From contig JAAYCR010000083.1 of NCBI GenBank assembly GCA_012729675.1, forward strand, positions 1 to 42,254: a DNA stretch of 42,254 nt. The letters run 5' to 3'. Source of the stretch: Phycisphaerae bacterium (GTDB taxonomy: Bacteria; Planctomycetota; Phycisphaerae; Sedimentisphaerales; Anaerohalosphaeraceae). A model generated the notes under the pieces. That model made no database searches, had not been told where the DNA came from, and saw nothing but the letters and a program-made list of their open reading frames with translations. A program made the position numbers and the translations under genes. The first letter of the stretch is position 1; each line of letters begins with the position of its first letter. Below, one piece after another: positions 23,904 to 27,108 of this stretch.

Positions 23904-24776
23904 CTACGGAACGGATTCCGGCCAAGGCCGGTTGAATGACTGTGGCGCATTAGGATCGGCGGGCGACTGGGGCGGACGTTCGGATCTGCGATAGCCGCCA
24001 GTCATAGGCGACTGAAAGGGGTCCTGAAGACCGTTTGGACCAAATCCTCGACCGAATTCGTTTTCCGGCCAAGACCAGTTGAAAAAAAGCGGTGCATTGG
24101 GATCAACGGGCATCAGGGGTATACTATTGGGGCTGCGGTAACCGGATCCAAACGGCTGACGGTAGCCTTGAGCGCTGCCCTGTCCGAATTCGAAATCCCG
24201 TCCGCGAGTGCCGCCCGTACCGAATTCGCGTCCGGGTTCGGAATCCCTTCCGCGGGGGCCGCCCGTACCGAATTCACGTCCGGGTTCGAAATCCCGTCCG
24301 CGAGGGCCGCCCGGCCCGAATTCACGTCCGGGTTCACCATCCCTTCCGCGGCCGGGTCCGCCATGAAAGGTGGGAAATATCTCTGGAATAGCTCGAATTT
24401 TTATTTTCCATTTATTGTACTGATCAAGTGTAAGTACATTTGAAATGTCAATATCAAGTTGTTCCAGTTGGCTGACAATCTGGGGGCGCACATCATCGCG
24501 GATTTTGCGGAGTTTTCTGTAGTGTTCACGGATGGCCGGCATCAGTTTGCTGCGCTGCTCGAGGGTCAGACCGAGTTCGCTGCTGAGTTGGTACAGAAAG
24601 CGCTCGGCGACTATTTCCGGCTCAGAGTTGATGGGTTCCTTTTGTTTGGACAAATACAAATACATTGCACCGGCCCCGATGGCATTGCCGGCAACCAGAA
24701 CGGCCAACCCCAGCAGAAACGACTTAATGAAGACGGCCCTGCCACGGCGTCCATAAAGCGGTTCGTGTGTTGTCAT
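23904..24776 (-). CDS. One-TM protein with Spy/CnrX-like segment and 16-residue Gly/Arg repeats
   Basis: A short cytoplasmic start and one membrane helix (FIKSFLLGLAVLVAGNAIGA) precede an outside segment of about 80 residues with LGLTLEQRSKLMPAIREHYR and VLTLDQYNKWK. That is the helix-turn-helix pattern of Spy/CpxP and CnrX-like periplasmic metal or stress sensors. Then come three and a half copies of a 16-residue unit like GRDFEPGREFGTGGPR, and a duplicated C-terminal module of about 45 residues (each with DPNAP..FN..WPE). The ATG at 24776 overlaps the upstream stop as ATGA, so it is coupled to the anti-sigma-like gene. By layout it could be the sensor of the sigma factor circuit. That is an inference, because the fold identification rests on short motifs. 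Confidence 0.75.
   Translation of the reverse strand: MTTHEPLYGRRGRAVFIKSFLLGLAVLVAGNAIGAGAMYLYLSKQKEPINSEPEIVAERFLYQLSSELGLTLEQRSKLMPAIREHYRKLRKIRDDVRPQIVSQLEQLDIDISNVLTLDQYNKWKIKIRAIPEIFPTFHGGPGRGRDGEPGREFGPGGPRGRDFEPGREFGTGGPRGRDSEPGREFGTGGTRGRDFEFGQGSAQGYRQPFGSGYRSPNSIPLMPVDPNAPLFFNWSWPENEFGRGFGPNGLQDPFQSPMTGGYRRSERPPQSPADPNAPQSFNRPWPESVP
24186..24355. repeat. 48-bp tandem coding repeat
   Basis: GAATTC marks successive units at 24222, 24270 and 24318 (48-bp period), with a shortened unit starting at 24186. The repeat stays in frame and encodes the 16-residue Gly/Arg/Glu/Phe unit of the minus-strand protein. Confidence 0.8.
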
Positions 24777-25036
24777 TGGGCAACCCATGCAACCATATTG
24801 AGAATTTCATTTACAGCATCGGAGTTTTGCTGCTTGGTGACAAATGCTGCCAGCACAATGCAGGCGGCGATGGCCGAAGAGGCCATCGACATCCAGAACA
24901 GCGAACGATTCAGCGCAACCGAAACGGAAGGTCGACGTTCGGCAAGCAGCGCCAGCACCGAATCGGCGACATCGACCACAGGGGCCGTGTCGCGTCGGGC
25001 GACGGCAAACAAATTGTTCATTTTTACAGTTTTCAT
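24773..25036 (-). CDS. Small one-TM protein, candidate anti-sigma factor
   Basis: An 87-residue protein with about 45 cytoplasmic residues (including VADSVLALLAERRPSVSVAL), one membrane helix (FWMSMASSAIAACIVLAAFV) and a short outside tail. Size and layout match small CnrY-like anti-sigma factors more than the large zinc-binding ones, and no HxxxCxxC motif is present. Its start overlaps the sigma factor stop (ATGA at 25033-25036), and its stop overlaps the next gene's start in the same way, so all three are translationally coupled. Position directly behind an ECF sigma gene is the strongest argument for the role. Sequence alone would not identify it. Confidence 0.65.
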   Translation of the reverse strand: MKTVKMNNLFAVARRDTAPVVDVADSVLALLAERRPSVSVALNRSLFWMSMASSAIAACIVLAAFVTKQQNSDAVNEILNMVAWVAQ

Positions 25037-25701
25037 AAGTCCAGCTCTATATTTCTATCGGCGGCCAGTTGTTTTAGTTTGGCCACAGCACGATGCGTCT
25101 GTACCTTGACGCGCGTCTGTGTCCAGCCAAGACGATAAGCAGTATCGGTGATACTGCACTGTTCCAGATACCGCATTGTCAGCACCAATCGGTCATTTTC
25201 CGGTAACGCGGCCAACAGGCGATGCACCAACTCGGCGGCATGCTGCACATCAAACGACTCAGCGTCAACATGTGCCAGCCCTTCCAGTATCTCGTCGGGC
25301 AGGGGCGTTGTTTTTTGTCTTCCCAAGTGCCGCCAATAATTGTACCCGACACGGGTGGCGATACGGGCCAGCCAGTGTGCCAGGGGCGCGTCACCGCGAA
25401 AACCGGGAAGACTCATCCACGCCTCGACAAACGTCTGTTGCACAAGCTCTTCATGCTCAGTGTGGTCTCGGGTAAATCGCCACAACAGCTTGCTCACGGA
25501 AGTTTGATGTCGCTCGATAAGGCGACGATACGCATCCGAATCGCCGTTTTTGCACTGGCGAATGTCCTCAAACTCGGCGGTGTGCGTCGCATTCGAATCG
25601 GCATCCTGTCGAAGGCTGAACAAACGCGCGACGACCGCATTCACCGTCTCGTTTAACGGTTGCGAACACACCAAGGCAAATTGGGACAAATGTACCGGCA
25701 T
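25033..25701 (-). CDS. ECF-type RNA polymerase sigma factor
   Basis: Region 2 (GDSDAYRRLIERHQTSVSKL, then FTRDHTEHEELVQQTFVEAW and GDAPLAHWLARIATRVGYNY) and region 4 (LPENDRLVLTMRYLEQCSIT, then AYRLGWTQTRVKVQTHRAVA) are both complete, separated by a short linker, as in ECF sigma factors. It should direct RNA polymerase to a small regulon. About 45 residues precede region 2, and the ribosome binding site before the ATG at 25701 is weak, so a later start is possible. It lies between a secreted LTPEQR protein upstream and its likely anti-sigma downstream (ATGA overlap). Autoregulation is likely for such operons, but I can point to no firm promoter; a TGTAAC-type sequence at about 26564-26572 (minus) is only suggestive. 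Confidence 0.9.
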   Translation of the reverse strand: MPVHLSQFALVCSQPLNETVNAVVARLFSLRQDADSNATHTAEFEDIRQCKNGDSDAYRRLIERHQTSVSKLLWRFTRDHTEHEELVQQTFVEAWMSLPGFRGDAPLAHWLARIATRVGYNYWRHLGRQKTTPLPDEILEGLAHVDAESFDVQHAAELVHRLLAALPENDRLVLTMRYLEQCSITDTAYRLGWTQTRVKVQTHRAVAKLKQLAADRNIELDL

Positions 25702-25795
25702 TCTATTCAGTGTAAGAAGTCGCCCGAAAAAAGCAACCGGAAAAATGCCCCTCGCCGGCGGTATTCCGGAAGGCGCAGAAAACAGTATTCAATTG

Positions 25796-26479
25796 TTATG
25801 GAGCGTCAATGCGAAATCGAGGGCCGCGTTCGATTTCCTGTTGAGGTCTTAGATTACCAGGGCCGCCTTGTCTGGGTCCAAGCGGCGGCTCGGCCAAATG
25901 CTGTGGGCCGGCCATGGGACTCCCTCTGCGAACGCCTCCTCCAAAGGGAGGCTGCATCCTGCCTTGGCCGCGTTGCGGGACATTCCGACCACCTGCAAAG
26001 CCACGCATCCTCGCCGCTGGACCGAAACCGCGGCCGCGAAACTGACCCTCAAGCGGCTGCCCTTGTTCCGGCTCAGGCACTTGAAAATATTCGCGGATAC
26101 GATCACGTTGTTGAGGCGTCAGGTCTTGGAATCTATCCGCCAATGGGCCGGGGATATACGACCGTTCCTCCGGTCGCAGACCGGCGCGGTCTTCCGGTCG
26201 GCCAAGTCTCCGACCGGGAACTTGATTCTGTTGGCGGCCCTGACCGTTGCGAAGTTCACCTTGAAGCTGTTCGCGTTGCTGCTGCAGACGCTCTTGAACA
26301 TACCCAAGAACGCGATCGCGCTGTTCAGGTGTCAAATCCTGAAACACCTCAGCAGTGGCGCCGAGGGGGGCAAGGCGTTCGCGCGGGCGCGGGCCGGGGC
26401 GACCTTCCTGGGCGAACGTCATCGGAACCAATAGAATCGTCGCCATAATCACCGGAATCATGATAATTTTCATCTTCAT
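25796..26479 (-). CDS. Secreted Gln/Arg/Gly-rich protein with two LTPEQR motifs
   Basis: A clear signal peptide (MKMKIIMIPVIMATILLVPM, then TFAQ) leads into a low-complexity, charged protein of about 200 residues. Two copies of the motif FQDLTPEQRDRVLGYVQ / FQDLTPQQRDRIREYFQ, 80 residues apart, are the recognisable elements. The LTPEQR signature is typical of Spy/CpxP-like periplasmic chaperone and metal-resistance proteins. The rest is Gly-, Arg-, Gln- and Pro-rich, especially the C-terminal half (FRGRGFGPAARMRGFAGGR). AAGGA nine bases before the ATG fits. It is first in the minus-strand operon with the sigma factor, 94 nt ahead of it, so it may be both target and part of the stress circuit. 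Confidence 0.75.
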   Translation of the reverse strand: MKMKIIMIPVIMATILLVPMTFAQEGRPGPRPRERLAPLGATAEVFQDLTPEQRDRVLGYVQERLQQQREQLQGELRNGQGRQQNQVPGRRLGRPEDRAGLRPEERSYIPGPLADRFQDLTPQQRDRIREYFQVPEPEQGQPLEGQFRGRGFGPAARMRGFAGGRNVPQRGQGRMQPPFGGGVRRGSPMAGPQHLAEPPLGPRQGGPGNLRPQQEIERGPRFRIDAP

Positions 26480-27108
26480 TTTATTTTTCCTTTGTCGTTA
26501 CGGTTTTGAGTATCACTTTATACTATCGTACCGTTCATAAGGGTAGTTGCGGATAAATCAGGAAAAGTTACATGAAAATCAAAATAGACACAAAAAGTTC
26601 TGCACGTTAGTTTCTCGTGGAGCTTTTTGTAAGATGTTTTAATACAATCATTTATGCGATCTTATCGCCGTGGTTCCATGCCGCCCTGAGGTCCTTGTCT
26701 CTGGTCGCCGCGGGCTTGGCCGCGTCCCTGGCCTCGGCCGTCACGAGGGGCGTTTTCGCCCTTGGTGCCGTCGCGGGGGCCTGTTCGGTTGCCTTTCTGT
26801 TGGCCGTCGCACTGCAACTGGGCTGAATTCTCGATGTTCTGGAATACATCTCTCCTGTTTCCGACGGCCTGAACCGTCGCGACGGGAAGCAAGCTTTTTT
26901 ACATTTAAAGAGCTTTTCTACAGAGCAGGTCAGACCCCGTTTCGTTTTTCTAATGGACAGGAATAATAGGAACGATAAAATAAAAGCAAAAAGGGCTGAA
27001 AAGAGCCTGTTGCATAAATAATTGCCAGTAATTGCTCTTTGTAACAAGTGAATAAATCCAGCTTTTCGGTTATAATAGGCCATACGGATTGCTAAACATG
27101 TAAAGGAC
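26480..27108. other. Gap before the stress operon; ambiguous GC-rich stretch
   Basis: No gene is convincing here. Between 26650 and 26890 the DNA is GC-rich and open in several frames on both strands, while the flanks (26480-26650 and 26930-27100) are AT-rich. The left part should hold the promoter of the minus-strand operon. The right part may be remains linked to the transposase fragment that follows. Confidence 0.4.
26662..26892 (-). pseudogene. Possible remnant of a Gly/Arg/Gln-rich secreted protein
   Basis: On the minus strand this frame ends in GQGRGQARGDQRQGPQGG and MEPRR, a composition like that of the Gln/Gly/Arg-rich protein just downstream (25796-26479). It has no signal peptide or good ribosome binding site, so it may be the 3' end of a decayed copy. 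Overlapping frames on both strands are also open, so the call is weak. Confidence 0.25.

Follow-up and report, generated by a model that had tools for sequence, protein, structure and literature searches.

Related systems and the position of this locus

The described system closest to the operon considered here is CnrYXH, carried on plasmid pMOL28 of Cupriavidus metallidurans, together with the related Ncc system. It consists of an ECF sigma factor, a ~90-aa anti-sigma with a single transmembrane (TM) helix, and a membrane-anchored helical sensor that lies outside the membrane, and the genes overlap. CnrY embraces its sigma factor with two helices (PMC4598750), and CnrX acts on CnrY in a sensor-to-anti-sigma geometry (PMC7689651). 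Another point of reference is the Cpx response of Escherichia coli, in which periplasmic proteins of the LTXXQ family (CpxP and Spy) are strongly induced outputs. CpxP is also a negative feedback element, which misfolded proteins are believed to titrate away (PMC6737893). Signaling in Cpx relies on a histidine kinase and a response regulator, whereas the locus described here has an ECF sigma factor with an anchored LTXXQ relative as the proposed sensor. A further relevant case is the Azospirillum brasilense operon AMK58_24940-24950, which encodes RpoE8, a hypothetical protein, and a periplasmic heavy metal sensor and is listed as up-regulated with RpoE6 (PMC12826043).

The operon lies in a window of 42,254 nucleotides, that is, the whole stretch of DNA that was analyzed, from a Phycisphaerae bacterium (contig JAAYCR010000083.1). 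Like CnrYXH, it combines an ECF sigma factor, a small single-TM protein, and an anchored helical protein in overlapping genes. Unlike CnrYXH, it has the order sigma-small protein-sensor (H-Y-X instead of Y-X-H), it has no RND efflux operon alongside, it begins with a secreted LTXXQ-type gene, and its sensor often carries a long Gly/Arg tail. The first-pass annotation of this DNA had proposed an analogy with CnrYXH. The analogy stands at the level of the parts, but no support was found for extending it to sequence, to a conserved metal ligand, or to an efflux operon. Comparison of the small protein and the sensor with CnrY and CnrX revealed no significant relationship. The small protein aligned to CnrY with an hhalign probability of 1.4%, and the sensor showed no similarity to CnrX in a profile comparison with a single CnrX sequence. 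Homology to CnrY is not claimed, because shuffling gave 0/500 with whole sequences but 206/2000 with the cytoplasmic part alone.

The same annotation had found the layout unfamiliar. This is true insofar as no description of the planctomycete module was found in the literature searched, with the main ECF classification outside that search, and the sigma factor may already carry an ECF group number. However, the layout itself is not unique, because the Azospirillum RpoE8 operon is described with the same order. What is new here is a conserved ECF-type promoter motif before the operon. The best reading, by analogy, is a three-protein circuit that would work like CnrYXH with a different gene order and output. 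Taken as a whole, the operon probably encodes a cell-envelope circuit in which an ECF sigma factor regulates its own production, with the 87-aa protein as its anti-sigma and a Spy-like protein as its sensor. Within this reading we infer the use of the promoter by the sigma factor, the binding of the 87-aa protein to it, the sensor role of the Spy-like protein, the signal, and the feedback.

Gene content of the operon

All four proposed genes are present on the minus strand, in the order 227-aa secreted protein, ECF sigma factor, 87-aa TM protein, and 290-aa TM protein (Table 1). The ATGA overlaps that had been reported among the last three are real: they lie at 25033-25036 and 24773-24776 (TCAT on the plus strand) and join the sigma, 87-aa, and 290-aa genes. 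The 227-aa gene does not overlap the sigma gene, and the 94-nt gap between them contains no unusual RNA fold and no convincing terminator. The 290-aa gene has an alternative ATG at 24788, which would give a protein of 294 aa. Searches against Rfam at gathering thresholds returned no match, and a scan with a defense library matched nothing relevant.

Table 1. Coordinates of the operon features in the window.
Feature	Position	Strand	Evidence
Secreted Gly/Arg/Gln-rich protein, 227 aa	25796..26479	-	ORF and signal peptide
ECF sigma factor, 222 aa	25033..25701	-	Pfam and TIGR02937; orthologue set in relatives
Single-TM protein, 87 aa, proposed anti-sigma	24773..25036	-	Invariant position after sigma; no known family
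TM protein, 290 aa, proposed sensor	23904..24776	-	Structure model; family matches to Metal_resist/LTXXQ
48-bp tandem repeat in tail of 290-aa protein	24182..24350	-	Tandem Repeats Finder
Predicted ECF-type operon promoter	26541..26573	-	Motif derived from relatives

The identification of the second gene as an ECF sigma factor is borne out by its domains. It has sigma regions 2 and 4 only, both above the Pfam cut-offs (Sigma70_r2, 48.3 bits against 24; Sigma70_r4_2, 45.5 bits against 25.7), and it scores 80.8 bits with the NCBIfam model TIGR02937 (cut-off 42.9). In a search of 59 genomes, namely the window's own and 58 relatives, its orthologues scored >100 bits and were set apart from other ECF sigma factors, which scored ≤71 bits. 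The sigma tree is made up mostly of Planctomycetota, together with two supported clades, one of four Armatimonadota and one of three Desulfomonile-type genomes. Because they form supported clades, the latter two groups are unlikely to be stray contigs.

The secreted 227-aa protein has a signal peptide, one LTPEQR motif, and one LTPQQR motif; the initial count of two LTPEQR motifs was incorrect. Despite these motifs and the signal peptide, its score for the LTXXQ/Spy-CpxP family (PF07813) is under the cut-off, and so is a weak match to the Pfam family DUF3106 (E 0.0017). Neither this protein nor the 290-aa protein exceeds any curated Pfam or NCBIfam cut-off. Proteins at the same position in relatives are clearer: four syntenic ones were scanned, and three of these exceed the LTXXQ cut-off of 24.3, with scores of 41.1, 34.0, and 33.4. 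Many genomes also have the secreted gene downstream of the same predicted promoter, which agrees with the suggestion that a secreted relative is part of the operon.

Conservation of the module

Is this arrangement of genes more than chance? The first-pass annotation had proposed a survey of gene order in planctomycete genomes, and the order sigma-small protein-sensor is kept at all loci examined. A small protein of 84-95 aa was found directly 3' of the sigma gene in 20/20 neighborhoods inspected. It was directly followed in all 20 by a TM protein with LTxxQ-like helices, and neighboring genes either overlapped or lay a few bases from each other. Likewise, every one of 80 loci from named genomes, some of which are the same genomes as the 20 relatives, had a sensor-profile match on the expected gene (80/80) and an ORF of 72-110 aa between sigma and sensor (80/80). 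Neither the small protein nor the sensor was found at a meaningful score in 20 control ECF neighborhoods (0/20). The layout is more than chance, because the order holds in 20/20 and 80/80 loci against 0/20 controls. When 298 genomes of the class were searched with the small-protein profile, 57 gave a match. The module is present in dozens of related bacteria and extends to a few other phyla, often with the same promoter sequence.

The 87-aa protein as a candidate anti-sigma

The 87-aa protein matched no known family in Pfam, NCBIfam, or a further library searched. Among 85 distinct sequences, its family conserves L9, A13, P19, V23, V27, and A57. Charge places the N-terminus inside the cell (+0.3 before the TM segment and -1.2 after it). 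The TM segment is rich in small residues and is followed by an outer tail of ~20 aa that often ends in W-V-x-Q or LW. An AlphaFold model of modest confidence consists of two short helices (5-15 and 23-33) and then one long helix (38-86). At all loci examined, the gene adjoins that of the sigma factor. The protein has a single predicted TM segment and, in the model, a helical N-terminus on the cytoplasmic side. By position, topology, and the known pattern of ECF systems, the 87-aa protein is most likely an anti-sigma. Covariation between it and the sigma factor was dropped as evidence of contact, because the top pairs by mutual information track a split between subtypes.

The 290-aa protein as a candidate sensor

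The 290-aa protein consists of a TM helix, a helical domain with the pattern LTLEQR...LTLDQ...W, and a Gly/Arg-rich tail. Its structure model has a TM helix at 11-44, helices at 53-68, 72-114, and 117-133, and a disordered tail, with low overall confidence. The 16-residue repeats noticed earlier in this protein correspond to a tandem array with a 48-bp unit, 3.5 copies, and 86% matches. A long Gly/Arg tail had been given as a mark of the sensor; it is common, but it does not define the family, being absent in 15 of 63 scored sensors (two of these are contig ends inside the gene). Across the family, the N-terminus before the TM helix is basic (mean net charge +2.8) and G30 and G34 in the TM helix are invariant. 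The helices that follow carry L70-x3-Q74 and L115-x3-Q119-x3-W123 and precede a variable low-complexity tail.

To which known family is this protein related? The window protein itself matches Metal_resist (PF13801) weakly, at 14.8 bits (E 0.03), below the cut-off of 29.2. In the sensor family, matches to Metal_resist were found in 11/21 members and to LTXXQ in 7/21, with E up to 0.1. The best Metal_resist score among relatives was 27.6 against 29.2, and one relative reached 28.1 against the LTXXQ cut-off of 24.3. These matches suggest a likely relationship of the sensor family to Metal_resist/LTXXQ, with the window protein itself below the cut-offs. Structure comparison with Foldseek against the PDB and with VIA-align gave no useful match to the sensor model; because the confidence of the model is low outside the helices, this does not indicate that a known fold is lacking. 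A profile search of the PDB returned Spy chains at E 0.001-0.002. Apolipoprotein A-I appeared at similar E, so that helix composition alone suffices for such matches, and they were not used as evidence of homology. By position, topology, and the known ECF pattern, the Spy-like TM protein is most likely a sensor acting on the 87-aa protein.

Predicted promoter

Comparison of upstream regions yielded a bipartite motif, TGTAACCT-N13/14-[CT]CACTAT. In relatives it occurs ~100 nt 5' of the start of the secreted gene, or of the sigma gene where the secreted gene is missing. The copy in the window, at 26573..26541, reads ATGTAACTTT-N13-GCAACTACCC and lies ~65-95 nt upstream of the ATG of the first gene. 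Its TGTAAC element is at 26572..26567 and its CAACTA/AACTA element near 26548..26544. This copy is weaker than those of relatives, with AACTAC in place of CACTAT. A hold-out model trained on the first set only, without the window, gave the window site a score of 17.4, which was reached by 0/2000 shuffles. With a threshold set at 1% of shuffles, the same model found sites in 22/41 upstream regions of the second set and in 1/20 upstream regions of control ECF genes. The pattern TGTAAC-N17/18-[AC]ACTA has a sole match in the 2.8-Mb genome, which is the site at this operon. A looser pattern, TGTAAC-N17/18-CACT, was dropped because its reversed control occurred at least as often.

ECF promoters typically carry AAC in the -35 element. 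Because the predicted -35 element has this AAC, the sigma factor probably transcribes its own operon from this promoter. The promoter model finds nothing in the gap that separates the sigma gene from the 227-aa gene, so all four genes probably share a single transcript.

Putative regulon

A strict form of the motif gave 26 sites in 24 relatives, most of them at this operon, and the reversed pattern gave none; a slightly looser search gave 38 sites against 8 reversed controls. Some of the looser sites will be chance, whereas those that recur are credible. For example, in three genomes (L174, L215, and L217) the motif precedes a secreted Gly/Arg-rich gene followed by a GspE/PilB-type ATPase (T2SSE, 358 bits), and the secreted proteins of the three are 40-50% identical to each other. 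In three genomes (L154, L198, and L216) it precedes a gene for a protein in which a Gly/Arg-rich, signal-like leader is fused to an O-methyltransferase domain (PF01596, 91-93 bits). Further sites precede a large membrane protein (two genomes), an LTXXQ protein (one), and, as judged by eye, TolC-like lipoproteins (two) and an ABC exporter pair (one). A TolC-like gene also lies directly downstream of some operons (L038 and L040). Searches of the 2.8-Mb genome to which the window belongs yielded no second target.

Because the motif precedes secreted Gly/Arg-rich, GspE-type ATPase, TolC-like, and ABC exporter genes, the output is better explained as envelope homeostasis than as metal efflux. In relatives, the same sigma factor probably also turns on these further secreted Gly/Arg-rich, secretion ATPase, and TolC/ABC genes.

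The exported look of the methyltransferase in L154, L198, and L216 is odd. Two genomes have a divergent pair of motifs ~117 bp apart (L183/L209 in G360 and L206/L217 in G354). The outward half of the pair in G354 faces the Gly/Arg-rich secreted gene and the GspE-type ATPase.

Proposed mechanism and alternatives

How might the circuit work? The N-terminal helices of the 87-aa protein would hold the sigma factor at the inner membrane, and the helical domain of the Spy-like TM protein, outside the membrane, would touch the 87-aa protein at its short outer tail. A client, possibly an unfolded or mis-secreted envelope protein and less likely a metal, would bind the Spy-like protein and alter the hold of the 87-aa protein on the sigma factor. 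The freed sigma factor would read the upstream promoter and produce more sigma, anti-sigma, sensor, and secreted Spy-like protein. The last of these may work as a chaperone outside the membrane and also exert negative feedback, much like CpxP in the Cpx response. One tentative idea goes further: Spy/LTXXQ relatives would stand at both ends of the circuit, the anchored one as the sensor and the secreted Gly/Arg-rich ones as the main output, and occupancy of the chaperone-like domains would report client load. If true, this would be a chaperone-displacement switch that has a conserved promoter of its own, controls a small regulon related to secretion, and occurs in Phycisphaerae and a few other phyla. 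To our knowledge, such a switch is not known for ECF sigma factors.

The circuit could instead be metal-responsive in the manner of CnrYXH, with the 290-aa protein binding a metal ion and the output being metal resistance. The parts list equals that of CnrYXH, the sensor family matches Metal_resist, and in relatives the putative targets and the neighbors include TolC-like genes. Position 85 of the sensor is His in 44% of members. However, this is the maximum for His, and Cys reaches 8%. No internal Met exceeds 59%, and the window protein has Leu at that Met position. Thus, no metal ligand is conserved across the family, whereas CnrX uses Met123, which is reportedly conserved in CnrX homologues (PMC7689651). 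Furthermore, no metal efflux operon adjoins the window operon, the sensor lacks detectable similarity to CnrX, and the recurring targets are mostly secreted proteins rather than pumps, all of which make metal sensing unlikely.

Another route would be regulated proteolysis of the 87-aa protein, which would free the sigma factor while the Spy-like protein shields the outer tail from a protease, as in RseA/RseB, without passing on a conformational change. ECF sigma factors are commonly freed by proteolysis (reviewed in PMC4598750), and a short outer tail with a small-residue-rich TM segment is of a type that intramembrane proteases can cut. The conserved module, however, contains no protease gene, and with ~20 aa the outer tail leaves little room for a site-1 cut, so this route appears quite improbable. 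It is very unlikely that the 290-aa protein is itself the anti-sigma, acting through its cytoplasmic N-terminus, with the 87-aa protein as an accessory: the sigma factor is invariably accompanied by both proteins, and this N-terminus is basic, but that cytoplasmic part is short and poorly conserved in the family, and the conserved cytoplasmic helix pair is in the 87-aa protein, which adjoins the sigma factor in every locus.

For the proposed envelope circuit, with the 87-aa protein as anti-sigma and the anchored Spy-like protein as sensor, the module supplies what direct tests of mechanism, signal, and regulon require: a predicted promoter, a candidate sensor, a candidate anti-sigma from a nameless family, and a short list of targets. 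The motif can be used for regulon searches in any genome that bears this sigma factor.

Variation upstream of the sigma gene

In a rough composition screen, which also admits some spurious reading frames, the gene 5' of the sigma gene was Gly/Arg/Gln/Pro-rich or of LTxxQ type in 51 of 76 loci. An upstream secreted gene accompanied 3 of 15 tailless sensors and 28 of 48 others (P 0.016, a guide only, as the rows are related). At L032:2858-3691, the secreted gene before the sigma gene has an EF-hand-like calcium-binding motif at its end (EF-hand_1, above the Pfam cut-off), and EF-hand-like ends were seen by eye in the upstream genes of L057, L059, L078, L084, and L087. In the window, a Gly/Arg-rich frame (GPRDGT...GRGQGRGQARG) lies just upstream of the promoter, at 26662..26892 on the minus strand. 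The frame lacks an in-frame ATG and a signal peptide. It resembles the small secreted Gly/Arg-rich proteins found 5' of the operon in L022:292-627, L049, and L054 and is perhaps a decayed copy.
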